A stretch of DNA of 64,000 bases from contig NZ_CP036273.1 in NCBI RefSeq assembly GCF_007747215.1, forward strand, positions 4,696,322 to 4,760,321, written 5' to 3'. The translations under genes and the position numbers were made by a program. Source of the DNA: Urbifossiella limnaea. GTDB taxonomy: Bacteria; Planctomycetota; Planctomycetia; Gemmatales; Gemmataceae. The notes beneath the pieces were generated by a model. That model was not told the DNA's origin, searched no databases, and was given only the letters and a program-made list of their open reading frames with translations. Numbering within the stretch: the first letter of the stretch is position 1; each line of letters begins with the position of its first letter. Of this stretch, positions 7,858-23,095 are shown piece by piece.

Positions 7858-8933
7858 TTACGCCTTACGCAGTTGACCGAGGTTGATCTTGCGCAACCCC
7901 GTTCCGGCGGTTAGGTTCGGCGGGATGAACGCCGCCCGCTCGACCGCCGAGGACTACATCCAGTTTCTCATCGCCTCGCCGGTCGTGGTCTCGGCCACCG
8001 AGGCCGCCCGGGTCCAGCCGGATCGCCCGGCGGCACCGGCCCACGACTCGTTCACCCGACTCCTCCACCGCCTCGAGCCCGACCCCGAGGCCCTGTGGGC
8101 CGAGGTCCGGCCGCTGATCGGGCGGGGGACCGGGGTGCTGGTCATCGACGACTCGACCCTGGACAAGCCGCGGGCCAAGCACATCGGGCTGGTCGCCCAC
8201 CACTGGTCCGGGAACCACCACGCCGTGGTCCGGGGGATCAACCTGATCACCGCCCTGTGGTCGGACGGGGATCGGGTGTACCCGTGCGACTACCGGGTGT
8301 ACCACAAGGACGGGGACGGGAAGACCAAGAACGACCACTTCGCGGACCTGCTGGTGGCGGCCCGGGACCGGGGCCTCCGCCCCCGGGCGGTGCTGTTCGA
8401 CGGGTGGTATGCGAGCGTCGAGAACCTCAAGCGGGTCCGGGACTTCGGGTGGGTGTTCGTGACCCGGTTCAAGGGGAACCGGAAGGTGCGAATCGACCAC
8501 GGGGAGACGATGGCGTTGGACCGCCAGCCGATCGCCGGGTCGGGGACGGTGGTGTGGGTGCCGGGGTACGGGGAGGTGCGGGTGTTTCGGGTGGTCGCCC
8601 CAGACGGCGACACGACGCACTGGGCCACCAACGACCTCGGGATGGACGAGCCGATGCGGCTCGTGTTCGGCGAGTTGTCGTGGGGGATCGAGGAGTACCA
8701 CCGGGGGCTGAAGCAGTACACCGGGGTCGAGCGGTGCCAGGTCCGGGCGGCGCGCGGGCAGCGGAACCACATCGGTTGTGCGATCCGCGCGTTCGTCCGG
8801 CTGGAGTACCATCGGTTCACCACCGGGGTGAGTTGGTTCGCCGCCAAGTGGGCCGTCATCCGGGACGCCGTCCGCGCGTACCTCGAACACCCGCTCTACC
8901 GTCTGCCAGACCCGATAACTGCGTAAGGCGTAA
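7858..8933 (+). mobile_element. IS701-like insertion sequence, complete
   Basis: A 1076-bp element bounded by perfect 17-bp inverted repeats: TTACGCCTTACGCAGTT at 7858-7874 and its reverse complement at 8917-8933. It contains one transposase gene whose stop codon lies inside the right repeat. ATG occurs directly outside both ends (7855-7857 is ATG if the flank reads outward as AATG|TTACG; 8934-8936 is ATG), a possible 3-bp target duplication that could be chance. Everything needed for transposition looks present. Confidence 0.8.
7925..8926 (+). CDS. IS701-like family transposase
   Basis: DDE transposase of 333 aa. The catalytic regions are GVLVIDDSTLDKP (first Asp), RAVLFDGWYASVENL (second Asp) and LSWGIEEYHRGLKQ (Glu), with the usual accessory blocks HWSGNHHAVVRGINL and RGQRNHIGCAIRAF. 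The end, WAVIRDAVRAYLEHP, matches the family C-terminus. ATG at 7925 is chosen because it gives a normal N-terminus MNAARSTAEDYIQFL; a TTG 42 bases upstream lies close to the inverted repeat. The TAA (8924-8926) falls in the right inverted repeat. No frameshift or internal stop is seen, so the copy looks active. The family name is by recalled resemblance to cyanobacterial and planctomycetal IS701 proteins. Confidence 0.83.
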   Translation: MNAARSTAEDYIQFLIASPVVVSATEAARVQPDRPAAPAHDSFTRLLHRLEPDPEALWAEVRPLIGRGTGVLVIDDSTLDKPRAKHIGLVAHHWSGNHHAVVRGINLITALWSDGDRVYPCDYRVYHKDGDGKTKNDHFADLLVAARDRGLRPRAVLFDGWYASVENLKRVRDFGWVFVTRFKGNRKVRIDHGETMALDRQPIAGSGTVVWVPGYGEVRVFRVVAPDGDTTHWATNDLGMDEPMRLVFGELSWGIEEYHRGLKQYTGVERCQVRAARGQRNHIGCAIRAFVRLEYHRFTTGVSWFAAKWAVIRDAVRAYLEHPLYRLPDPITA

Positions 8934-9098
8934 ATGTATGAAATCCTCAGCAGTTTCCAGGGTTTGTGGAGGTAGCCGCTTACCATTCGCCCGGAACCGA
9001 CCGAGGAGTTCAAGTGAAGCGTAACGGCCCGGCGGATCACGTGATTGACGGGTCGTGTATGGTCGGTGGCATCCGCCCCCTTCTCGGAGAATGCCACC

Positions 9099-9443
9099 GT
9101 GCCCGACGTGCCCACCCACTCCCCGTATGACCCGGCCGCCACCCGGCGGTGGGTCGAACGCCTCGGCCGGTTCGCGGCCGGCGACCTCACCGTCGCCGGG
9201 TTCTGCGCCGCCGAGGGCGTGTCCGAGTCCAACTTCTACCTGTGGCGGCGACGCCTCGGACAACCACCCACGCCCGCCTCAAACCGACCGACGGTCGTGC
9301 GCCTCCGGGTCACACCACCCCACACGCCCCCGACGCCCATCGAACTGGTCCTCCCGTCGGGAGCCGCCCTCTGCTTCCCGCCCGACGCCCGCCCGGAACT
9401 CGTCGTCGCCGTCGTCCGCGGGGTGGAGGGCCGGCCGTGCTGA
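9099..9443 (+). CDS. tnpA: IS66 accessory protein TnpA
   Basis: Small DNA-binding protein (114 aa) of the IS66 family. It begins with YDPAATRRWVERLGRFAAGD and has the helix-turn-helix VAGFCAAEGVSESNFYLWRRR, followed by the usual C-terminal part with ELVLPSGAALCFPPDARPE. GTG at 9099 is preferred because GGAG lies about nine bases upstream and the protein then starts just before the conserved block. Its stop TGA overlaps the GTG of tnpB (GTGCTGA), a typical coupled arrangement. It looks intact. Confidence 0.8.
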   Translation: MPDVPTHSPYDPAATRRWVERLGRFAAGDLTVAGFCAAEGVSESNFYLWRRRLGQPPTPASNRPTVVRLRVTPPHTPPTPIELVLPSGAALCFPPDARPELVVAVVRGVEGRPC

Positions 9444-9787: not shown

Positions 9788-9833
9788 CCGTTTTATGCTA
9801 GCGCGAGGCCGCCGGCCGCGTCATCATCCGGGC

Positions 9834-11407
9834 ATGGACGCCCCGCCGCCCGACCCCACGGCCCCGCTCCCGACCGACGTTCCCACCCTCCAGGCGATGG
9901 TCCGGGAGCTGCTGGCCCGGAGCCAGCAACTCGAAGCCCGGGTCGCCGAGCTGACGGCCAAGCTCGACGCCGCCCTCAAGCACCGGTTCGGCCGCCGCAG
10001 TGAGCGCCGCCCGCCGCCGCCCGCCGCCGACAAGACGAAGCGGCGGCGTGACGAGCACGGCCGGTCGCCGCTGCCCGCGCAGCTCGAGCGCCGCGAGGTC
10101 GTCACGACCTGACGGCGGCCGAGCAGCTGTGCCCGTGTTGCGGCCGGCCGCGGGCGTGCATCGGCGAGCAGACGGCCGAGCAGCTCGACCTGGACCCCGC
10201 CCGGTTCTTCGTCCGCCGCACGATCCGGAAGAGCTACGCCTGCCGGCACTGCGACCCCACGACCGTGCCGGTGGAGCAGCGGCTGGCCACCGCCGAGCCG
10301 ACGCAGGTCGGGCCGATCGCCAGGGGGCTGTGCGGCCCCGGGCTGCTGGCCCACGTCGTCACCGCCAAGTTCGCCGACCACACGCCCGTGCACCGCCTCG
10401 CCGGCCAGCTGGCCCGGTCGGGCGTGACGATCGCGTCCGCGACCCTGGGCGACTGGCTCTTCGGCGCGTCGGAATTGCTGACCCCGCTGTACGACCTCAT
10501 GCACACGCGGGTGCTCCTGTCGCGGGTGATCCACGGCGACGACACCGGGGTGAAGTTGCGGGTGCCGGGGTGCCCCCGGACGAAGAAGGCGCACCTGTGG
10601 GCGTGCGTCGGGGACGCCGACTACCCGTACGCGGTGTTCGACTTCACGACCGACCACACGGCCGACGGGCCGACCCGCTTCCTCGCGGGGTTTGCGGGTT
10701 ACCTCCAGGCCGACGCCCTGGCCCAGTACGAGGGGCTGTTCGGCGACGACCGGGTGACGCACGTGTGCTGCGTGGCCCACGCCCGCCGCAAGTTCGTGGC
10801 CGCGAGCGACGCCGGCGACGAGCGGGCGGCCACGGCGTTGGAGTGGATCGGCCGGGTGTACGCCGTCGAGCGGGGGTTGCCGCCGCTGCTGCCGCCGTCG
10901 GACGATCCGGCGCACCAGGAACGGCGTCGGCACCGCGAGGACGAGCGCCGGGCGGTGCGGCACCGCGACGCCGGGCCGGTGTAGGACGACCTGGAGAAGT
11001 GGCTGGTGGAGGCCCGACCGGGTGCGCTACCGAAGTCGCCGCTCGGGACCGCGATCGGGTATGCGTCGAACAACTGGGTCGCCCTGAAGCGATACCTGGA
11101 GGAGAGCTTCCTGGCGATCGACAATAACCTCGCCGAGCGGACGCTGCGGGCGATCGCGTTGGGGCGGAACAACTGGGGCGTGATCGGGAGCGAGGTGGGC
11201 GGCCAGACGGCGGCGGTGCTGTACTCGGTGGTCGGGACGTGCAAGCACCTGGGGATCGACTCGTTCGCGTACCTGCGGGAGGCGCTGCCGGGGCTGTTCG
11301 CGCTGGGCGACAAGCCGACCGCCGAGCACCTGTCGGACTGGCTCCCCGACCGCTGGCTGCTGAACCGTACCCGCGATCACCCGATCCCGGCGACGGCGGC
11401 CGGGTAA
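9834..11407 (+). pseudogene. tnpC: IS66 transposase TnpC, broken by a 1-nt deletion and an amber codon
   Basis: DDE transposase of IS66, which would be about 525 aa. The N-terminal coiled coil (LQAMVRELLARSQQLEARVAELTAKLDAAL) is read from ATG 9834 but the frame closes at 10110-10112. The sequence continues one frame over as DLTAAEQLCPCCGRPRACIG, the zinc-ribbon region; one missing C near 10103 restores REVVHDLTAAE. The catalytic parts follow: VIHGDDTGVKL, GYLQADALAQYEGL and NNLAERTLRAIALGRNNW with the Glu. A second lesion, in-frame TAG at 10982-10984, separates RHRDAGPV from DDLEKWLVEARPG. Both lesions are simple point events, so decay is recent. Confidence 0.88.
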
Positions 11408-12088: not shown

Positions 12089-14278
12089 GTGAACGACATC
12101 ATCCGCGACTTCCTCCTCGAAACGCACGAGAGCCTCGCACAACTCGACCTCGATCTCGTCGCGCTCGAAAAGACTCCGCGGGACCGCGAGACCCTCGACC
12201 GCGTGTTTCGCGCGCTCCACACGGTCAAGGGGACGGCCGGGTTCCTCGGACTCGACCGACTCCAGGCCGTGTCCCATGCCGGCGAAAACCTCCTGAGCCG
12301 ACTGCGTGCCGGTGAGATCATCTTCAACCCCGAGATCGCCACCGCGATGCTCGCCGTGGTCGACGCGGTTCGCAGGATTCTTGCCGGGCTGGAAGCGACC
12401 GGGCAGGAGGAAGAGGCGGACTTCTCCGACATCATCCGCCGCCTCGAAGCGCTCACGAAAGGGGCGGCGAGCAACCGAGCGCAGCCCGCCGCGCCCCCCC
12501 CGCCCGTCGTCGTCGGGCCGACGCGCGTTACCGTCCTTCCGCCCGAACCGCCGCCGGCCCCGGTGCTCGCGGCCGTGTCGATGGCCGAGCCCGCTGAAGG
12601 GCGACACTCGGCGGTGTCCGACGGTAGCATCCGTGTGGACGTCGGACTCCTCGACAAGCTCATGACGCTGGTCGGCGAGCTCGTGCTGGCACGGAACCAA
12701 CTCGTCGGCTTCCGGGCGGCGCGCGAGGACCCGGCGCTACACGGCCCGGTGCAGCGGCTCGACCAGCTCACGACCGAGCTCCAGGCCGGCGTGATGAAGA
12801 CGCGGATGCAGCCGGTCGGGTCGCTCTGGGGGAAGTTCCCACGGGTCGTGCGTGACCTTGCCGCGGCGTGCGGAAAGCAGGTCCGGCTCGACCTCGATGG
12901 CGGCGACACCGACCTCGACAAGTCCGTCGTCGAGGCCATCCGCGACCCGCTCACGCACATCGTCCGCAACGCCGTTGACCACGGCATCGAGCCGCCTGCC
13001 GACCGCCTCTCCCGCGGCAAGCCTGCCGAGGGGCGGCTCCACCTCCACGCCGCGCACGAGGGCGGCAAGGTGGTCATTCGCGTCAGCGACGACGGCGGCG
13101 GCATCGACCCCGGCAGGGTCCGCGCGAAGGCGGTCGCCGCCGGCCTGCTGTCCGCCGACCTGGCCGCCCGCCAGTCGGACCGCGAGGCGGTGAACCTCGT
13201 CTTCCTCCCCGGGTTCTCGACCGCCGACAGGGTCACCCACTTCTCCGGCCGCGGCGTCGGTATGGACGTGGTCCGCACCAACGTCGAGAAGATCGGCGGC
13301 ACCGTGGATCTGGAGAGCCGGCCCGGCGGCGGCACGACGGTGAGCATGAAGATCCCGCTCACCCTCGCCATCATCCCGGCGCTCACCGTGACGTGCGGCG
13401 GCGACCGCTACTGCATCCCGCAAGTGAGCCTCCTCGAACTGGTGCGGCTCGACGGCGATCAGGCCCACACGGGCGTCGAGTATGTCCACGGCGCGCCGGT
13501 CTACCGCCTCCGCGGCAACCTGCTGCCGCTCGTCCACCTCGACCGGCTGCTGCGCGTGGACCCGACGCGGCCGGCCGACGGCGGCGCGACCGTGGTCGTG
13601 ATCCAGGCCGACGACCGGCCGTTCGGGCTGGTCGTGGACGACATCCACGACACCGGCGAGATCGTGGTAAAGCCCTTGCGGAAGCAGTTAAAGGGAGCGG
13701 CGGCGTTCTCCGGCGCGACGATCCTCGGCGACGGCCGGGTGGCACTGATTCTCGACGTACTGGGCCTGGCACAGCGGGCCGGTGTGGTGTCCGGGCCGCG
13801 CGATCGCGCCGCGGCGGAGCGGCCGTCGGCCGTCGCGGCCGCTCAGGCGCGCGAGACGGTGCTGCTGGTCGCGTCCGGCGGCGGGCGGATGGCCATCCCG
13901 CTCGCCGCGGTCGACCGGCTGGAAGAATTCCCGCGCGCGTCGGTGGAGCGAGTCGGCGGGCGGAGCGTGGTGCAGTACCGCGGCGAGATCCTGCCGCTCG
14001 TCCGTGCCTCCCGGCCGAGCCGCCACAAGCGCGCGGCGAAGCGTCGGCCCGACGAGCAGCGTAGGTTGCAAGTGGCGGTGTGCGCGGCCGACGGGCGTCG
14101 CGTCGGGCTGGTGGTGAGCCGACTGCTGGACGTCGTGGAGGAGGCGGTGACCGCCCGCGCCCCGGCCGGCCGCGCGGGGGTGCTGTTCACGGCCGTCGTG
14201 CAGGACCGGGTGACGGAGTTCCTGGACATCGCGGCGGTCGTGAAGGCGGCGCACCCGGCCGCCGTATCGCCGGAGTAG
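12089..14278 (+). CDS. cheA: Chemotaxis histidine kinase CheA with two CheW-like domains
   Basis: Sensor kinase of 729 aa that would autophosphorylate under receptor control and pass phosphate to CheY and CheB. The Hpt domain carries the phospho-His at residue 44 (RALHTVKGTAGF). A proline/alanine-rich linker of about 50 residues follows, leaving no room for a normal CheY-binding P2 domain. The dimerisation helix pair starts at IRVDVGLLDKLMTLVGEL. The ATPase domain has DPLTHIVRNAVDHGIE (N box) and GRGVGMDVVRTNVEKIGG (G boxes). A first CheW-like domain begins at LTVTCGGDRYCIPQVS, and a second is repeated at the C-terminus (RETVLLVASGGGRMAIPLAAV). Start is GTG at 12089. It heads an operon in which genes follow with very small gaps. 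Confidence 0.93.
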   Translation: MNDIIRDFLLETHESLAQLDLDLVALEKTPRDRETLDRVFRALHTVKGTAGFLGLDRLQAVSHAGENLLSRLRAGEIIFNPEIATAMLAVVDAVRRILAGLEATGQEEEADFSDIIRRLEALTKGAASNRAQPAAPPPPVVVGPTRVTVLPPEPPPAPVLAAVSMAEPAEGRHSAVSDGSIRVDVGLLDKLMTLVGELVLARNQLVGFRAAREDPALHGPVQRLDQLTTELQAGVMKTRMQPVGSLWGKFPRVVRDLAAACGKQVRLDLDGGDTDLDKSVVEAIRDPLTHIVRNAVDHGIEPPADRLSRGKPAEGRLHLHAAHEGGKVVIRVSDDGGGIDPGRVRAKAVAAGLLSADLAARQSDREAVNLVFLPGFSTADRVTHFSGRGVGMDVVRTNVEKIGGTVDLESRPGGGTTVSMKIPLTLAIIPALTVTCGGDRYCIPQVSLLELVRLDGDQAHTGVEYVHGAPVYRLRGNLLPLVHLDRLLRVDPTRPADGGATVVVIQADDRPFGLVVDDIHDTGEIVVKPLRKQLKGAAAFSGATILGDGRVALILDVLGLAQRAGVVSGPRDRAAAERPSAVAAAQARETVLLVASGGGRMAIPLAAVDRLEEFPRASVERVGGRSVVQYRGEILPLVRASRPSRHKRAAKRRPDEQRRLQVAVCAADGRRVGLVVSRLLDVVEEAVTARAPAGRAGVLFTAVVQDRVTEFLDIAAVVKAAHPAAVSPE

Positions 14279-14280
14279 CC

Positions 14281-14727
14281 ATGCCCGTCGACCGCCAGTT
14301 CTGCACGTTCCTCCTCGCCGGCCACCACTTCGGGGTGGACGTGACGAGCGTGCAGGAGATCATCCGCGCGCAGGAGATGACCCGCGTCCCGCTCACCGCG
14401 CCGGTCGTCCGCGGGCTCATCAACCTCCGCGGCCAGATTGTGACCGCCCTCGACCTGCGCCGCCGACTCGGTCTCCCCGACCGGCCGGACGGCGACCCGC
14501 CGGTGAACGTCGTCGTACGGACCGACGACGGGGCCGTCAGCCTTCTTGTGGACGAGATCGGCGACGTGCTGGACGTGCCCGAGAGTGCGTTCGAGCAGTC
14601 ACCCGAGACGCTCACCGGCCCCGCACGCGGGCTCATTCGCGGGGCGTACAAGCTCGACGGGCGGTTGCTCCTGATCCTCGACACCGACCGCACGGTGGAC
14701 CTCGCCGACGCCCGCGCCCCCGACTGA
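14281..14727 (+). CDS. cheW: Chemotaxis coupling protein CheW
   Basis: Adaptor of 148 aa linking receptors to CheA. It shows the complete CheW pattern: FCTFLLAGHHFGVDVTSVQE, the conserved TRVPLTAPVVRGLINLRGQI and the second subdomain VVVRTDDGAVSLLVDEIGDV. ATG at 14281 is two bases after the cheA stop. The receptor gene follows 18 bases downstream. A stand-alone CheW together with two CheW-like domains on CheA gives three copies of this fold in the signalling array. Confidence 0.93.
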   Translation: MPVDRQFCTFLLAGHHFGVDVTSVQEIIRAQEMTRVPLTAPVVRGLINLRGQIVTALDLRRRLGLPDRPDGDPPVNVVVRTDDGAVSLLVDEIGDVLDVPESAFEQSPETLTGPARGLIRGAYKLDGRLLLILDTDRTVDLADARAPD

Positions 14728-14745
14728 CCCCCAACCGAGCCGCCC

Positions 14746-16356
14746 ATGCCGCCGCCGAAGAAGCCCCGCACCCGGCCCGCCGCGAAACCCGCCGCGAGCC
14801 TCGACACCGTGGAGTTCCTGCGGGCGGCGTTCGACGCCGTCCAGACCAACGTCTTCTTCGCCGACCCGGGGCTCAACCTCGTCTACGCCAACGGCCGGGC
14901 GCTGGAGACGCTCCGCGGCATGGAGAGCGAGTTGCGGAAGGTGTTCGGGGTCGGCGTGGACGACCTCCTGGGCGGGTCGATCCACCGGTTCCACCGCGAC
15001 CCGCGGGCCATCGAGCGCATCCTCCACAACCGCGCCGCCCTGCCGCACGAGGCCGAGTTCACGTTCGGGTCGATCACCCTGCACGCCCGCATCAACGCCG
15101 TGCCCGGCGCCGGTGGGGCGGTGGCGGGCTACGTTGTCCACTGGGACGACGTGACAGCCGCCCGGCAGGAGCAGGCCCGGCTCTCGGCCATGCTCGACGC
15201 CATCGACAAGTCCCAGGCGGTGATCGAGTTCAAGATGGACGGCACGATCCTGGTGGCGAACGACAACTTCCTGCGGCTGATGGGCTACACTCTCGACGAG
15301 GTGAGGGGCCGGCACCACGGGATGTTCGTGGACGACGCGACCCGCACCGGCGCGGGCTACACCGAGTTCTGGGCGCGCCTCGGCCGGGGGGAGTACCAGG
15401 CGGGCGAATTCCGCCGCGTCGCCAAGGGCGGCCGGGAGGTGTGGATTCAGGGGAGCTACACCCCGGTGATCGACCGGTCCGGGAAGCCGGTGAAGGTGGT
15501 GAAGTACGCGTCCGACGTGACCGCACAGGTGCGGTTGCGGCTCGACGTGGAGGGCGTGCTGCGGCGGGTGGCCGAGAGTGCCACCGCCCTGGCCGCGGCG
15601 TCGCGCCAACTCGGCGGGGTGAGCCAGCAGATGGCCGCGAACGCCGAGGAAACGGCGGCGCAGGCGGGGGTGGCGTCGGCGGCCGCGGAGGAGGTGAGCA
15701 CGAGCGTCGCCACCGTCGCCACCGGGGCCGAGGAGATGGGGGCGAGTATCCGCGAGATCGCCCGCAGCGCGCACGAGGCGGCCAAGGTGGCCACGTCCGC
15801 GGTCAAGGTCGCCGACCGCACGAACGACACGGTGGCAAAGCTCGGCGAGAGCAGCGCCGCGATCGGGAACGTGGTGAAGGTCATCACGTCGATCGCCCAG
15901 CAAACGAACCTGCTAGCGCTGAACGCGACGATCGAGGCAGCGCGGGCCGGCGAGGCCGGGAAGGGGTTCGCGGTGGTGGCCAACGAGGTGAAGGAACTGG
16001 CGAAGCAGACGGCGCGGGCGACCGAGGACATCGGCCGGAAGATCGAGGCGATCCAGGGCGACACCCGCGGGGCGGTCGAGGCGATCGGCCAGATCGGCAA
16101 GGTGATCACCGAGATCAACGACATCCTGAACACCATCGCCAGCGCCGTCGAAGAGCAGACGGCGACGACGGGGGAGATCAGCCGGAGCGTGACGGAGGCG
16201 GCGAAGGGGAGTAACGAGATCGCGCGGAACATTACCGGCGTAGCACAGGCCGCCCGCGGCACCACGGAGGGCGCCGGCGAGACGATGCGCTCGGCCGACG
16301 CCCTGTCGCGGATGGCGAACGAGTTGCAGCAGTTGGTGAGCGGGTTCAAGCATTGA
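14746..16356 (+). CDS. Soluble methyl-accepting chemotaxis protein with two PAS domains
   Basis: Receptor of 536 aa with no membrane segment or signal peptide, so it should sit in the cytoplasm. A basic start ([14 protein letters not shown]) is followed by one PAS-like domain (about 22-135) and a clear second PAS domain (about 145-260, [49 protein letters not shown]). From about residue 270 there is the long helical signalling domain with the conserved hairpin tip [20 protein letters not shown] and [18 protein letters not shown] domains usually bind haem, flavin or small ligands, so a redox or energy signal is plausible. It ends LVSGFKH without a CheR-docking pentapeptide. Confidence 0.93.
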
Positions 16357-16451: not shown

Positions 16452-16823
16452 ATGCACGCGCTCGTGATCGACGACTCCCGGACCGTCCGGGCCATCATCG
16501 GCAAGACGCTCCGCGACGAGGGGTTCGCCGTGTCCGAGGCCGGCGACGGCCGCGCCGGGCTCGCCGCGCTCGCCCGTACGCCCGACGTCGGCCTCATCCT
16601 CGTGGACTGGAACATGCCCGTGATGGACGGGCTTGAATTCATCACCGCGGTTCGCGCCGACCGCAGCTACGACGGCGTCCGGGTCGTGATGGTCACCACC
16701 GAAACCGAGCAGGCGCAGGTCGCCCGCGCCATGGCGGCCGGCGCGGACGAGTACGTGATGAAGCCGTTCACCCGCGACATCCTCGTCGCCAAGCTCAGCC
16801 TCCTCGGCGTCCTCGGGGAGTAG
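16452..16823 (+). CDS. cheY: Single-domain response regulator CheY
   Basis: Receiver protein of 123 aa. The acidic pair is D7-D8 (LVIDDSRT), the phospho-acceptor is D52 in ILVDWNMPVMDG, the conserved Thr lies in VMVTTETE and the Lys is in EYVMKPFT (K104), so it should be phosphorylated by CheA. No output domain is attached. ATG at 16452 is chosen over earlier in-frame codons because GGAGG at 16439-16443 precedes it by eight bases and upstream codons fall in the palindrome. The cheB gene starts two bases after its stop. Confidence 0.93.
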   Translation: MHALVIDDSRTVRAIIGKTLRDEGFAVSEAGDGRAGLAALARTPDVGLILVDWNMPVMDGLEFITAVRADRSYDGVRVVMVTTETEQAQVARAMAAGADEYVMKPFTRDILVAKLSLLGVLGE

Positions 16824-16825
16824 CC

Positions 16826-17872
16826 GTGCCCGCGATCCGCGTCCTGATCGTCGACGACTCGGCCGTGTTCCGCCGCGCGGTGGCCGGGGAGCTGTCCGCC
16901 GACCCGACCCTTGAAGTCGTCGGCACCGCGGCCAACGGCCGCATCGCCCTCGCCAAGCTGGCGCAGGTCGTGCCGGACCTCGTCGTCCTCGACGTGGAGA
17001 TGCCCGAGCTAGACGGGCTGGCGACGCTCCGCGAGATCCGCAAGACGTACCCGAAGCTGCCGGTCATCATGTTCAGCGCGGTGACCGAGCGCGGCGCGGC
17101 CGCGACCCTTGACGCACTCGCCCTCGGCGCCACCGACTACTTCCCGAAGCCGGCCGGCGGAGGGCTCGACGCTTCACTTCGAGTCATCCGTGAGGAGTTG
17201 ATCCCGGAAATCAAGGCGCTCTGTACCCGCCCCGCGGCGCTCCCCCCTACCCCGCACGTCGGACCGGTGCCCGTGTCCGGTCGCGTGGACGTGGTCGCGG
17301 TCGCGGCGTCCACCGGCGGGCCGAACGCCCTCGCCGACCTGTTCGCCGGCCTTCCCGTCGACTTCCCGGTGCCGGTCGTAATCGCCCAGCACATGCCGCC
17401 CATGTTCACCCGCCAACTCGCCGAGCGGCTGTCGGCGCGGTTCGCCGTGCGGGTCGAGGAGGGCCGAGCCGGTGCGGCACTCGCCCCCGGACACGCCTGG
17501 ATCGCGCCTGGGGATTATCACCTGGTACTCGCCCGCGACGCCGCGGGGGTGCGCGTGGTGTTGAACCAGGAGCCACCCGAGAACTCGTGCCGCCCGGCCG
17601 CGGACGTGATGTTCCGCTCGGTCGCCAAGGCGTACGGCCCGGCGGCGCTCGGCGTCGTCCTGACCGGCATGGGGCAGGACGGGCTACGCGGCAGCGAGGC
17701 GATTCGTGCCGCCGGCGGGCGGGTGATCGTCCAGGACGAGGCGACCTCGGTGGTGTGGGGGATGCCGGGGGCGGTGGCCCGCGCCGGGCTCGCCGACCGC
17801 GTTCTGCCGCTGGCCCAGCTCGCGCCCGAGGTCGTGCGGCGGGTCCGCGTCGGCCGGGAGGGCGGCCGATGA
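16826..17872 (+). CDS. cheB: Chemotaxis methylesterase CheB
   Basis: Protein-glutamate methylesterase/deamidase of 348 aa that resets receptors. An N-terminal receiver (VLIVDDSAVFRRAV, phospho-site LVVLDVEMPELDG, FPKPAGGG) is joined by a short linker to the esterase domain. The catalytic triad is visible: Ser in VAASTGGPNAL, His in IAQHMPPMFT and Asp in LTGMGQDGLRG. GTG start at 16826. The end overlaps the ATG of cheR by four bases (ATGA), so the adaptation enzymes are made together. Confidence 0.94.
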   Translation: MPAIRVLIVDDSAVFRRAVAGELSADPTLEVVGTAANGRIALAKLAQVVPDLVVLDVEMPELDGLATLREIRKTYPKLPVIMFSAVTERGAAATLDALALGATDYFPKPAGGGLDASLRVIREELIPEIKALCTRPAALPPTPHVGPVPVSGRVDVVAVAASTGGPNALADLFAGLPVDFPVPVVIAQHMPPMFTRQLAERLSARFAVRVEEGRAGAALAPGHAWIAPGDYHLVLARDAAGVRVVLNQEPPENSCRPAADVMFRSVAKAYGPAALGVVLTGMGQDGLRGSEAIRAAGGRVIVQDEATSVVWGMPGAVARAGLADRVLPLAQLAPEVVRRVRVGREGGR

Positions 17873-18684
17873 CCGCCCAGGACTTCGAGTACGTGTGCCG
17901 GTTCGTCCGCGACCGCAGCGCCATCGTGCTGGACGCGGGGAAGGAGTACCTCGTCGAGTCGCGCCTAAGCCCGCTCGCCGCGCAGCTCCGGCTCGGCTCG
18001 GTAGGCGACCTGATCGGGCAGCTGAGGACCGGCCGCGACGCCGGGCTCGGCACCCGCGTCATCGAAGCGATGGTGACGAACGAGACGCTGTTCTTCCGCG
18101 ATGTGCAGCCGTTCGACACCCTTCGGCGGGTCGTGCTGCCGGAGTTAATCCGCCGCCGCGAGGCGGAGCGGCGGCTGTCCGTCTGGTGCGCCGCGTGCTC
18201 GACCGGGCAGGAGCCGTACAGTCTTGCAATGCTGATCCGCGAGTACTTCCCGGCTCTCGTCACGTGGCACGTCAACATCCTGGCTACGGACCTGTCGGCG
18301 GAGGTTTTAGCTCGGGCGCGTGACGGTCGTTACAGCCAGCTTGAGGTGAACCGCGGGCTGCCGGCGGCCTTCCTCCTGAAATACTTCCGCCAGCAGGGCG
18401 GCGTGTGGGAATTAGCCGACGACATGCGGCGCATGGTCGAATTCCGGGAGCTGAACCTCGTCCGCGAGTGGCCGTCGCTGCCGCGGTTCGACCTCGTGTT
18501 CCTGCGGAACGTGATGATCTACTTCGACGTGGGCACGAAAAAGGCGATCCTCGATCGCGTGGCCCGCGTGCTGCGACCCGACGGTTACCTCCTCCTTGGA
18601 GCGGCCGAATCGACGATCAACCTGGCGGACAGTTTTCGCCGGGCGGAGGAATTAAAGGGCGGCTTTTACCAGTCCGTTGGCTGA
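17869..18684 (+). CDS. cheR: Chemotaxis methyltransferase CheR
   Basis: S-adenosylmethionine-dependent protein-glutamate O-methyltransferase of 271 aa, acting on receptor glutamates. The N-terminal helical domain ends at VTNETLFFRD. The SAM-binding site is VWCAACSTGQEPYSLAM, followed by ILATDLSAEVL, and the C-terminal part has DLVFLRNVMIYFD and LRPDGYLLLGAAES. No TPR extension is present. ATG at 17869 overlaps the cheB stop. The receptor gene in the same cluster is the obvious substrate. Confidence 0.94.
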   Translation: MTAQDFEYVCRFVRDRSAIVLDAGKEYLVESRLSPLAAQLRLGSVGDLIGQLRTGRDAGLGTRVIEAMVTNETLFFRDVQPFDTLRRVVLPELIRRREAERRLSVWCAACSTGQEPYSLAMLIREYFPALVTWHVNILATDLSAEVLARARDGRYSQLEVNRGLPAAFLLKYFRQQGGVWELADDMRRMVEFRELNLVREWPSLPRFDLVFLRNVMIYFDVGTKKAILDRVARVLRPDGYLLLGAAESTINLADSFRRAEELKGGFYQSVG

Positions 18685-18698
18685 CCACGGGGGCGAGG

Positions 18699-19160
18699 GT
18701 GGACACGCGGGACGAGTTACTCGGTGCGTTCGACACCGGCGTCGTGACCTCACTGCGGGAGTTGGCCGGCGTCGAGGCGGTCCGGTGCGGCGGGTGTGTC
18801 GGCGACGCCGACGTCGCGGCGGCGCTCCGGTTGGACGTCGGAGCGGGGTGGTGGGCAGCCCTCGCGTTCCCGTACGCCACCGCCGCCGCGCTCGCGCGCC
18901 GGGTGCTGGCGGGTGTCGCGGACGAGCCGGATGCCGCGTTGGTCCGCGACTGCGTGGCCGAGTTCCTGAACGTGGCGGCCGGGCAGGCCAAAACCCTACT
19001 CTATGGCACGCCGCACCACTTCACGTTCGCCACCCCGACCACGCCGCCTGACACGGCCGCCGGGGACGGGGTCGGATTCGAATCCGAGTGCGGCACGTTC
19101 CTCCTGTACCTGTTCCCGGCGGCCGCAACTGCAGCGCCGACCATCTGCCAGGGGGCCTGA
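18699..19160 (+). CDS. CheX/CheC-like chemotaxis phosphatase
   Basis: Protein of 153 aa that resembles CheX, which removes phosphate from CheY. The signature helix is DCVAEFLNVAAGQAKTLLYG, containing the ExxN pair (E-F-L-N) that inserts into the CheY active site in this family. The following strand HHFTFATPTTP also fits. Only one ExxN helix is seen, as in CheX rather than CheC. GTG at 18699 is chosen because a GGGGGCGAGG purine stretch precedes it; homology does not fix the start. It sits between cheR and the kinase-receiver gene, with two bases before the latter. Confidence 0.72.
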   Translation: MDTRDELLGAFDTGVVTSLRELAGVEAVRCGGCVGDADVAAALRLDVGAGWWAALAFPYATAAALARRVLAGVADEPDAALVRDCVAEFLNVAAGQAKTLLYGTPHHFTFATPTTPPDTAAGDGVGFESECGTFLLYLFPAAATAAPTICQGA

Positions 19161-19162
19161 CG

Positions 19163-20722
19163 ATGACCAGAGCGACCCGTGGAGTGGTTTCCGCCGCCGA
19201 GTTCGCACAGCGCGTTACCCTCAGTGGACTACTCGACCCGGCCGACATCCCCCCGGCTGCCGACGGCGCGACGGCCGCGCGTATGCTCGTCGAGGCCGGG
19301 AAGCTGACCGCCTTCCAGGCCGAAGCGATCCTCGGCGAGCGGTTCGAGGAGTTGCGGATCGGGAACTACGAGGTTCTCGACCGACTCGGGGCCGGCGGGA
19401 TGGGTGCGGTGTTCAAGGCCCGGCACCGACGGATGAAGCGCGTCGTCGCCCTCAAGGTGCTGTCCCGCGAGGGCGCGCGCTCGGGCACGCTGGCCGAGCG
19501 GTTCCAGCGCGAGGTGGAGACGCTCGCCCGGCTCGCCCACCCCAACATCGTGATGGCTTACGACGCCGACGAGGCGGAGGCCGGGCCTTTCCTGGTGATG
19601 GAACTCGTGACCGGCCGCGACCTGGCCTCCGAGGTCGCCGACCGCGGGCCGCTCCCGGTCGAGGACGCAGTCGACCGCATCCTTCAGGCCTCCCGCGGGC
19701 TCGAGTACGCCCACGCCCAGGGGATCGTTCACCGGGACATCAAGCCGGGGAACATCCTCCGCGATACCGAGGGGCTTGTGAAGGTGGCCGACCTCGGGCT
19801 GGCCCGGTTGAACGAGCCCGCCAATCCGGCCGCGAACCTGTCACTGACCCAGGCCGGCACGGTCGTCGGCACGGCCGAGTACATGCCGCCCGAACAGGCC
19901 GTCGATTCTGGTGAGGTAGACCACCGGGCGGACGTGTACAGCCTCGGCTGCACGCTGTTCTTCCTGCTGACCGGCCGGGCACCGTACCAGGCTGCTTCGA
20001 TCATGTCGATGTTCTTGAAGCACCGTGACGAGCCGGTGCCGAGCGTCCGTGCCCTACGGCCGGCGGTGCCGGCCGAGCTCGACGCCGTGTTCCAGCGGAT
20101 GGCCGCGAAGGCGCCCGCCGACCGCTACCAGTCGATGACGGAGGTGGCTGCGGCACTGGAACGAGTCCGGGCGAACCTCTCGCCGGCCAACGTTGGGACT
20201 GGTGAGTGGTCGGCGATGCCGCCTGCGTCGGCCGTGCCTCCCGGCAAGACCCGCGTCATCGACCGAAACTCCCCCGCGGGGTCCAGCGAGTCGACTGGGG
20301 AGTTCGCGCTGTCACCACCGTCCACCGCCACGGCCGCGCCGGCGAGCGGCGTCGCAGGACGAACCGTCGTGCTGGCGGAGCCGTCGCGGACGCAGGCCGG
20401 GATCATCCGCCGCTACCTCCAGCAACTCGGCGCCGCGAACGTGCACGCGGCCGAGTCGGGGGCCGAGGCACTCGCGCTCGCGAAACGCGAGGGAGCGGCA
20501 GTGGTCGTTTCGTCGATGCACCTGAAAGACATGACCGGGGCACAACTCGCGACCGCGTTACTGGCTGACCCCTCGTGCGCCGGAGTCGGGTTCGTGTTGG
20601 CGACCAGTGAGGCCGACGGCCAAGCCCCCGGCGCCGTCCCCACCAGCCCGCGAGTCGTGGTGATGCCGAAGCCCTTCGACGCCGAGCGCCTCGCCCGATC
20701 GGTCGCCGCCGTCGTACGCTAA
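19163..20722 (+). CDS. Ser/Thr kinase fused to a degenerate receiver domain
   Basis: Hybrid of 519 aa that closes the chemosensory operon. The kinase domain (about residues 68-335) is complete: LGAGGMGAVFKA, Lys 98 in VALKVL, HRDIKPGNIL at 190-199, DLG at 210-212 in place of DFG, and EYMPPEQ. A low-complexity linker (about 340-398) leads to a receiver fold (400-519). In that receiver the acidic pair is replaced by EP (406-407) and the phospho-acceptor position reads VVSSMHLKDMTG, Ser where Asp is expected, while the Lys of MPKPF (503) remains. No membrane segment is seen. It probably takes a docking cue from the Che proteins rather than a phosphate; this is inference. Confidence 0.9.
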   Translation: MTRATRGVVSAAEFAQRVTLSGLLDPADIPPAADGATAARMLVEAGKLTAFQAEAILGERFEELRIGNYEVLDRLGAGGMGAVFKARHRRMKRVVALKVLSREGARSGTLAERFQREVETLARLAHPNIVMAYDADEAEAGPFLVMELVTGRDLASEVADRGPLPVEDAVDRILQASRGLEYAHAQGIVHRDIKPGNILRDTEGLVKVADLGLARLNEPANPAANLSLTQAGTVVGTAEYMPPEQAVDSGEVDHRADVYSLGCTLFFLLTGRAPYQAASIMSMFLKHRDEPVPSVRALRPAVPAELDAVFQRMAAKAPADRYQSMTEVAAALERVRANLSPANVGTGEWSAMPPASAVPPGKTRVIDRNSPAGSSESTGEFALSPPSTATAAPASGVAGRTVVLAEPSRTQAGIIRRYLQQLGAANVHAAESGAEALALAKREGAAVVVSSMHLKDMTGAQLATALLADPSCAGVGFVLATSEADGQAPGAVPTSPRVVVMPKPFDAERLARSVAAVVR

Positions 20723-21046: not shown

Positions 21047-23095
21047 CTACCGCGTCTCCGCGAAGAGCATGACGACCGACCGCGCGCCGGCCCGGTAGCT
21101 CACGCCCGGTATTGCGGGCGCCGCGGTCCACTCGCAGATATCGTCCGGCGACGGCAACGCGGTGTCGATCCAGCGCCGCCATCCCCTCCCACCCGGCAAC
21201 TCGAACTCGAGCGGCTCCCAGTAGCCGTTCAGGATCATGTGGAACGTCAGCCCCTCGCCCGGGAGCTCGCCCCCGAACGCGATGCTGCGGGAGTTCTCGC
21301 CCCAGTCGGGCTGGTTCAGTCGCGTCCCGTGCCAGGCCTTGTTCGCCCGGGCGATCAGTTCCGTGAGGCTCAGCCGCTGCTCCTCGTGCCACACGTCCCG
21401 GAGTACCCGGCGGGCGAGCAGCAGTTTCACGAACCGGTGGACGTCGGCGTGCTTCTGCACCAACGCCCAGTCGAACCAGTTGGCCTCGGTGTCGTGGCAG
21501 TAGAAGTTGTTGTTCCCGCCCTGCGTTCGCCGCACCTCGTCGCCCATCAGGATCATCGGCAGCCCGATCGACATCAGCGTGGTGGCGTGAGCGTTCTTAA
21601 CCTGCCGGTTCCGCATCGCCTCCACCGCGGGGTCGTCGGTCGGGCCTTCGGCGCCGCAGTTCCAGCTCCGGTTGTCGTTCGCCCCGTCGCGGTTTTGCTC
21701 CCCGTTGGCCTCGTTGTGCTTCTCGTTGTAACTCACGAGGTCGTTGAGCGTGAACCCGTCGTGGCAGGTCACGAAGTTGACGCTCTGCTCGGCCTCGCGC
21801 CCCTTGTGGCCGTACACCTCGTGGCTGCCGAGCATCCGGTCGGCGAACCGCCCGACCGAGCCGGGGGCGCCGCGGAGGAAGTCGCGCGCGTCGTCGCGGA
21901 ACCGGCCGTTCCACTCCTTCCAGGCGTCGCCGACGAAGCTCCCCACCTGGTACAACCCGGCCGCGTCCCACGCCTCGGCGATCAGCTTTATCCCGGCCAG
22001 CGCCGGGTCCGACTCGATGTCCCACAGCACAGGCGCGTTCGGCAGCGGGCGGCCGTCCGGGGCGCGGGACAGGATCGACGCGAGGTCGAACCGGAACCCG
22101 TCCACGTGCATCTCGGTCACCCAGTAGCGCAGGCTGTCCACAATCAGCCGGCGGGCGACCGGGTGGTTGGCGTTGAACGTGTTGCCGCACCCGGAGTAGT
22201 CGGCGTACCGGCTCCCGCCCTGTTCGAGCATGTAGTACGTCGGGTTGTCGATCCCCTTGTACGAGAGCGTGGGGCCGTCGTGGTTCCCCTCGGCGGTGTG
22301 GTTGAACACCACGTCGAGGATCACCTCGATGCCGGCCCGGTGGAGCGCCTTGACCATGTCGCGGAACTCGTCCACCGCGCCGAGCGGGTCGCGGCGGGAG
22401 CTGTACTGCGGGTGCGGCGAGAAGTAGTTGACCGACTGGTAGCCCCAGTAGTTAACGAGCCCGGCCGGGCAGGCGAACGGGTCGAAGGCGTGGACCGGCA
22501 GCAACTCGACCGCGGTAACGCCGAGGTCGCGCAGGTAGTCCACCTTCTCGGCCAGCCCGACGTACGTCCCGCGGACGGCGTCCTTCAGCCCCGAGTTCGG
22601 GTGGCGGGTAAAGCCGCGGACGTGCATCTCGTAGACGACGGTCCGAGCCGACGGTCGGCGGAGCGGGGCGTCGCCCTCCCAGTCGTAAGCGCCGCTGTCC
22701 ACGACGACACTCTTCATCGCGGTCGCGGCGTTGTCGCCGGGGCGGCGGGCCGGCTCCGGGGAGTACCCGGGCGGGATGACGACGCCGCGGCCGTAGGGGT
22801 CGAGGAGAACCTTCTCGGGGTCGAACCGCAGCCCCCGGTCGGGGTCAACCGGCCCGCGCACCCGGTAGCCGTAGAGCTGTCCGGCCTTCACCCCCGGGAC
22901 GAACGTGTGCCAGTAGTGGTAGGTGCGGTTCGAGACGGGGTCGAGGGGCACGACGCGGGCCGCGGCGCCGTCCTCGCGGTCGAACAGGAGCAGGTCCACG
23001 CCGCCCGCGGTGCGCGAAAACAGGCTGAAGTTGCAGCCGCCGTCGGCGACGGTCGCGCCGAGGGGGGCGGGTTGACCGGTGATCGTGGGGTTCAT
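21047..23095 (-). CDS. glgX: Glycogen debranching enzyme GlgX
   Basis: GH13 isoamylase-type enzyme of 682 aa that hydrolyses alpha-1,6 branches of glycogen limit dextrin, a cytoplasmic partner of glycogen phosphorylase. An N-terminal CBM48-like domain (PAPLGATVADGGCNFSLFS) precedes the barrel. Catalytic sites are visible: nucleophile in VDGFRFDLASIL, acid/base Glu in KLIAEAWDAAG and the third carboxylate in VTCHDGFTLND. ATG at 23095 has GGGAG five bases upstream. The phosphorylase gene it should work with lies 17 kb away in the minus-strand cluster. The 233 bases upstream, before the divergent antiporter, must carry both promoters. Confidence 0.94.
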   Translation of the reverse strand: MNPTITGQPAPLGATVADGGCNFSLFSRTAGGVDLLLFDREDGAAARVVPLDPVSNRTYHYWHTFVPGVKAGQLYGYRVRGPVDPDRGLRFDPEKVLLDPYGRGVVIPPGYSPEPARRPGDNAATAMKSVVVDSGAYDWEGDAPLRRPSARTVVYEMHVRGFTRHPNSGLKDAVRGTYVGLAEKVDYLRDLGVTAVELLPVHAFDPFACPAGLVNYWGYQSVNYFSPHPQYSSRRDPLGAVDEFRDMVKALHRAGIEVILDVVFNHTAEGNHDGPTLSYKGIDNPTYYMLEQGGSRYADYSGCGNTFNANHPVARRLIVDSLRYWVTEMHVDGFRFDLASILSRAPDGRPLPNAPVLWDIESDPALAGIKLIAEAWDAAGLYQVGSFVGDAWKEWNGRFRDDARDFLRGAPGSVGRFADRMLGSHEVYGHKGREAEQSVNFVTCHDGFTLNDLVSYNEKHNEANGEQNRDGANDNRSWNCGAEGPTDDPAVEAMRNRQVKNAHATTLMSIGLPMILMGDEVRRTQGGNNNFYCHDTEANWFDWALVQKHADVHRFVKLLLARRVLRDVWHEEQRLSLTELIARANKAWHGTRLNQPDWGENSRSIAFGGELPGEGLTFHMILNGYWEPLEFELPGGRGWRRWIDTALPSPDDICEWTAAPAIPGVSYRAGARSVVMLFAETR

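Follow-up and report, generated by a model that had tools for sequence, protein, structure and literature searches.

The window analysed here, a stretch of 64,000 nucleotides from Urbifossiella limnaea, raises the question of what a Ser/Thr kinase fused to a receiver without a phosphorylation site is doing at the end of a chemosensory operon, and whether this receiver is a working part of a signalling pathway or the remains of one. The gene in question (19163-20722, plus strand) is an intact open reading frame of 519 amino acids with an ATG start, encoding a Hanks-type Ser/Thr kinase (STK) followed by a receiver (pREC), and the fusion is referred to as STK-pREC. Pfam recognises the kinase at residues 69-323 (Pkinase, E 7.7e-50), corresponding to positions 19367-20131, and its catalytic residues are complete (K98, E117, D192, K194, N197 and D210). 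The receiver is matched at residues 402-513 (Response_reg, E 1.7e-7) with 31.9 bits at a cut-off of 30.2, and residue alignment and a structure model place the pseudo-receiver at 20357-20719.

STK-pREC is the last gene of an operon with the order cheA-cheW-mcp-cheY-cheB-cheR-cheX, in which all seven che genes lie on the plus strand and are matched by Pfam. In detail, these are cheA (12089-14278), which encodes Hpt, dimerisation, HATPase and CheW-like domains and was also placed in a CheA tree, cheW (14281-14727, E 9.3e-35), a PAS-containing chemoreceptor with an MCP signalling domain (14746-16356), cheY (16452-16823, E 1.9e-26), cheB (16826-17872), cheR (17869-18684) and cheX of the CheY-P phosphatase family (18699-19160, Pfam CheX E 2.3e-6). 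The start codons of cheW, cheY and cheR are our own choice and the GTG start of cheX is uncertain. With CheA, CheW, an MCP and CheR/CheB within one operon, the locus qualifies by its Pfam matches as a chemosensory pathway. CheY is a stand-alone receiver whose acidic pair and phospho-Asp are retained, as judged from the translation, and CheX contains a DxxxExxN-like stretch. The cheX stop codon (TGA, 19158-19160) is followed by CG and then by the ATG of STK-pREC at 19163, and AGGGGG at 19150-19155 could serve as its ribosome-binding site. Just upstream of cheA, at 9795-11407, there are pieces in more than one frame that presumably derive from an IS66-type transposase, and on the other side a minus-strand gene (21047-23095), which we take to be glycogen debranching enzyme-like, converges on the STK gene.

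The initial annotation had described the gene as a Ser/Thr kinase with a pseudo-receiver that closes a chemosensory operon and starts two bases after cheX, and the Pfam matches and the junction sequence bear this out. It had also described the receiver as carrying Glu-Pro instead of the acidic pair and Ser-Ser at the phospho-Asp site while keeping the Lys, which agrees with E406-P407, with S450-S451 at beta3, where S451 occupies the phospho-Asp column, and with the retained K503-P504-F505; the stretch T481-S482 lies between them.

For the identification of relatives, a profile of seven full-length proteins was searched against 95 genomes of the window's family, which gave 24 genomes at 529 bits or more, set apart from kinase-only matches at 492 bits or less. 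Sampling 297 genomes across the class brought in four more, from three other families (G150, G259, G265 and G294), and none of 294 genomes sampled across the phylum yielded an additional STK-pREC case at E 1e-140. Altogether STK-pREC was found in 28 genomes of four families within one class, including one genome (G024) that was counted by its kinase alone, as the contig ends before the receiver, and one (G108) in which the receivers lie in a second frame. These two were left out of the residue counts, which refer to 26 readable copies including the window, several of them close relatives of one another. A CheA search across wider contigs returned at least 80 loci, mostly of other phyla; among the loci listed, two of 80 hold an ORF matching the kinase profile, neither of them with a pREC among the 40 of 157 receiver matches listed, and therefore this search adds no member to the group and gives it no name.

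The phospho-Asp column of pREC holds Ser in 14 copies, Ala in seven, Thr in four and Gly in one, so that the canonical Asp is absent from all 26. The first acidic position is acidic throughout (Glu 23, Asp 3) and the second is occupied by Pro (23) or Ser (3). The switch position is Thr or Ser and the next residue Ser in 26/26, and the Lys is kept in 24. In the two exceptions (L014 and L015, from genomes G096 and G097 of one genus) the Lys is replaced by Asn and the second receiver described below is still canonical. All catalytic residues of the kinase are present in 25 of the 26 copies, and the remaining one is truncated by a contig end. Ser451 itself is disfavoured as a conserved kinase target because 12 of the 26 copies have a residue other than Ser in its column.

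pREC was modelled with AlphaFold from an alignment that combined receivers of the window with receivers of the named loci; the model adopts the receiver fold, with a mean pLDDT of 92.8 and Z against solved receivers reaching 18.1, and its alpha4 region is a low-confidence loop. By sequence, the closest solved relatives are CheY proteins, and the absence of ShkA, a kinase considered below, from the matches listed in the comparisons with solved structures excludes nothing. Folding the whole protein from its single sequence gave a poor model (pLDDT 46.2), which was set aside. With a receiver fold and no Asp at the phosphorylation site, pREC would belong to the aspartate-less receivers (ALRs), which signal without Asp phosphorylation. 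The first acidic residue is retained in 65% of Asp-less receivers, according to a survey (PMC4395418), and the Glu of the window's pREC, read from its alignment column, keeps this position acidic as in most of them. In a comparison of the window with G001, the NG86 omega is lowest in pREC (0.11), followed by the kinase (0.16), the linker (0.26) and the N-terminus (0.28), the regional comparison being that of one pair by this simple method only; YN00, applied to the kinase region only, gives 0.045.

Most copies do not end with pREC. A canonical second receiver (REC2) follows it in 21 of the 26 readable copies, and the acidic pair DD, the Asp and the Lys of REC2 are retained in all 21. A Pfam scan of seven relatives agrees with this, finding two receiver stretches in each of five REC2-bearing proteins and one in each of two proteins whose genes lie behind their che operons. 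The five copies without REC2 are those of the window, G001, G075, G150 and G265. No REC2 remnant was found by tblastn with five REC2 queries downstream of the STK stop in four of these five genes, where the only matches, all outside the window, spanned 9-16 residues at E no lower than 2.7. Loss of REC2 from these copies is the simpler reading of the sequences, because REC2 is present in both main STK clades, with the proviso that quick trees cannot separate gain from loss and that the five rows form no single clade in the STK or the CheA tree. It was also considered that the window's stand-alone CheY is a split-off REC2; this is disfavoured because CheY is nearer to the separate CheY of another locus (L002, 60% identity) than to a REC2 (about 36%, L003:11884-12210). 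In four Nitrospirae-type che loci (L122, L124, L127 and L131), cheA is preceded by a tandem pair of separate, canonical CheY-like genes, and such genes are a possible source of tandem receivers.

STK-pREC is linked to cheA in 19 of the 28 genomes, in two arrangements. In 14 genomes (12 of the window's family, G259 and G294) STK-pREC-REC2 lies directly upstream of cheA, a front type that takes in G113 and G111, where cheA is a fragment at a contig end. In the five of the back type, the gene follows cheX, as in the window's genome (G000), in G001, G075 and G150 and, inverted, in G265, and all five operons carry a separate cheY and cheX. In eight genomes (G019, G030, G034, G104, G105, G108, G109 and G110) cheA was not seen in the stretch around STK, the contig stopping 0.6 to 4.7 kb beyond the STK gene in five of them (G034, G110, G109, G108 and G030), and contig ends leave the linkage in G024 undecided. 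In four front-type operons (G006, G112, G114 and G259) no receiver beyond those of cheB and STK was found from STK to cheR, the scanned stretch breaking off within cheR in G006 and reaching some 1.2 kb past it in the other three. If no cheY exists elsewhere in these genomes, REC2 would be the natural acceptor of CheA phosphate there.

Two other kinases were met near che genes. In one locus (L032, genome G088, 8060-9442) an ORF right after cheR, cut by the contig end, combines what we read as an HDOD-like part with the start of a Ser/Thr kinase, and may represent another type of che-operon kinase in the family. Another locus (L037, genome G092) has, on the minus strand at 12674-15010 and roughly 1.6 kb upstream of its cheA, a distinct Ser/Thr kinase joined to another receiver, which seems to lack the Asp, and to a tail that we read as HD-GYP-like, with a CheY-like gene between kinase and cheA.

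The initial annotation had suggested a physical link between the Che pathway and eukaryotic-type phosphorylation, and a lasting association of che genes and kinase is supported by the 19 linked genomes and by the conserved fusion. With the Asp absent from 26 of 26 readable copies and che linkage in 19 of 28 genomes, the pattern exceeds what chance would give. The search for the order cheX-kinase-receiver that it called for recovered this order in three further genomes, with the inverted case as a variant, and the check on the Asp found it lost throughout. Of the two outcomes that it had named as arguing for simple decay, neither occurred, as no relative carries a canonical Asp and the fusion is not confined to the window.

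The history of the kinase resembles that of CheA. A quick tree of STK-pREC shows two clades with support of 97 and 99, and a quick CheA tree of the same genomes shows two matching groups, both with support of 99. Rows from the three other families nest among those of the window's family in both trees. The distances in the two trees correlate (Mantel r 0.83 over 21 pairs, p 0.0001; within clade I r 0.62 over 11 pairs, p 0.0001), in a test that cannot tell shared vertical descent from coupling. The likeness of the trees fits with inheritance or transfer of the kinase and cheA as a unit and is no proof of function by itself. The first CheA group also holds five rows without STK-pREC (G064, G065, G067, G072 and G081); these genomes match the STK profile at best in the kinase-only range, and therefore this Che lineage can do without STK-pREC. 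At the level of sequence, a module of kinase, Asp-less pREC and usually a canonical REC2 is thus established in one bacterial class, with a tree like that of its cheA genes.

The next point concerns the motor. Searches with FliG and FlhA mark the same 16 of 40 genomes, and neither gave a match in the window's genome, which consists of one contig and is 97% complete; the FliM model, with a match in only three of the 40 and missing most flagellated genomes, is too insensitive as a flagellum marker. Within the window's family, flhA was found in one of 24 STK genomes (G001) versus 33 of 71 others (Fisher p 1.3e-4), and in none of the 15 STK genomes that are at least 90% complete. Among family genomes with a strong CheA match and no STK gene, 12 of 14 have flhA versus one of the 24 (Fisher p 4e-7), with the cut for a strong match (E below 1e-150) set post hoc and the next two genomes below it (G013 and G023, E near 1e-121) lacking flhA, which makes 12 of 16 at a looser cut. 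In a kinship-aware contrast test on the CheA tree, which provides two to three independent pairs, the association with flagella is not significant. Outside the family all four STK-pREC genomes contain FlhA, and G001 also has both. Matches to the PilT family above the cut-off occur in 36 of the 40 genomes, that of the window included, and pili may therefore serve as an output.

The explanation that we favour, with a probability slightly above one half (about 0.55), is that STK-pREC is a Ser/Thr kinase arm of the chemosensory pathway in which pREC acts as an adaptor. The two-receiver form is taken as the older design, in which CheA would hand its phosphate to REC2, and pREC, situated between REC2 and the kinase, would convert the state of REC2 into a change in kinase activity. 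In the window's form REC2 would have been lost, and the signal would reach pREC in trans, from CheY-P (which CheX switches off) or directly from CheA or CheX. The input of the window's kinase is the least certain step because this form has no REC2; activated CheY is our preferred candidate, at about one in three, with docking of CheA or CheX as the alternatives. The output would be the phosphorylation of Ser/Thr targets and, because FliG and FlhA gave no match in the window's genome, probably not the flagellar motor. Competition of pREC with CheY, which had been proposed initially, is not the simplest ancestral role, because most copies carry a canonical REC2 and most linked ones precede cheA. 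A comparable division of labour exists in PleD, where one phosphorylatable and one adaptor receiver are coupled to an enzyme, as proposed here for REC2 and pREC; PleD differs in having a diguanylate cyclase as output and a reversed domain order.

Another model for the adaptor role is ShkA from Caulobacter, in which a catalytic core, a pseudo-receiver and a phosphorylatable receiver follow one another, an order shared by the front-type relatives; in ShkA the pseudo-receiver is the input domain that controls the kinase, and REC2 restrains the kinase, which becomes free once this last receiver is taken away (PMC7010744). The same order of kinase, pseudo-receiver and canonical receiver is present in 21 of the 26 copies, but not in the window's protein, which ends after pREC. 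ShkA is a histidine kinase, and the available part of the report (PMC7010744) mentions no che linkage, whereas here a Ser/Thr kinase core is found in a che operon.

A different possibility is that the kinase acts on the chemosensory array, with pREC docking on CheA, CheX or CheY and the kinase phosphorylating Che proteins on Ser/Thr, thereby setting gain or adaptation. The likeness of pREC to CheY among solved structures, the shared operon, the persistence of pREC in the window's form while REC2 is absent, and the presence of CheX and CheY in all five back-type operons are consistent with such a role. However, the commoner form has its own phosphorylatable receiver in 21 of 21 cases, suggesting that CheA acts on the kinase, and in eight of the 28 genomes a nearby cheA was not seen. 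We therefore regard an action on the array as rather unlikely.

Less probable still, pREC could serve an input other than Che, as a sensor or dimerisation domain responding for example to a small ligand, with the linkage to cheA as a historical relic. In ShkA, c-di-GMP binds to the pseudo-receiver (PMC7010744), and the copies of STK-pREC without a cheA nearby also keep an Asp-less pREC. On the other hand, the DDR linker motif of ShkA was not seen in the linkers between pREC and REC2 in an alignment read by eye, and linkage in both front and back arrangements together with the similar trees of STK and CheA speaks against this reading. Finally, simple decay of a receiver on an ordinary kinase, for which the weak Pfam score, the poorly defined alpha4 and the lack of REC2 in the window could be cited, was rejected as very improbable, as the Asp is absent from every readable copy while other positions are fixed, the Asp-less state is common to four families with no canonical Asp in any close relative, and the NG86 omega of pREC is the lowest of the protein.

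Parts of this arrangement have precedents. Like pREC, the ALRs RitR and FrzS have a receiver fold without phospho-Asp and keep the first acidic residue and the Lys, and in the available part of the survey that describes them (PMC4395418) no tandem of STK, ALR and REC and no link to a che operon was found. In Shewanella oneidensis, the Che1 system with CrsR/CrsA likewise has a chemosensory cluster whose output is not a motor, in this case a partner switch controlling RpoS; CrsR carries an anti-sigma factor domain, as stated in the report on this system (PMC9855816), whereas STK-pREC is a Hanks-type kinase, and no Pfam match to an anti-sigma factor domain was found in the window's protein or in the seven relatives scanned. 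Non-motor chemosensory outputs such as that of Shewanella Che1 and, in aggregate, Asp-less receivers with Ser/Thr kinase domains are therefore already known. In a search of the open-access literature with partial coverage, none of the papers listed was recognised as describing a che operon whose Ser/Thr kinase carries a pseudo-receiver and a true receiver in tandem, or a system with the window's arrangement, in line with the initial annotation, which knew of none.

Taken together, STK-pREC appears to be a conserved signalling part rather than a gene in decay, and most of the bacteria that carry it lack flagellar genes. Tentatively, it may define a chemosensory class in which a hybrid Ser/Thr kinase replaces the flagellar motor as output, CheA signals to a receiver placed behind an Asp-less adaptor, and a His-Asp relay is thereby turned into a Ser/Thr one; the window's lineage would have dropped the phosphorylatable receiver, leaving the dead receiver as the entry for stand-alone CheY. 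The family would also offer a natural series for dissecting the role of an Asp-less receiver, comprising kinase-pREC-REC2 from operons where a separate cheY was not seen, kinase-pREC-REC2 alongside a separate cheY, and kinase-pREC without REC2. For many bacterial Ser/Thr kinases the input, and for many non-flagellar chemosensory pathways the output, has yet to be identified, and STK-pREC, which joins the two, would allow a direct test of both.
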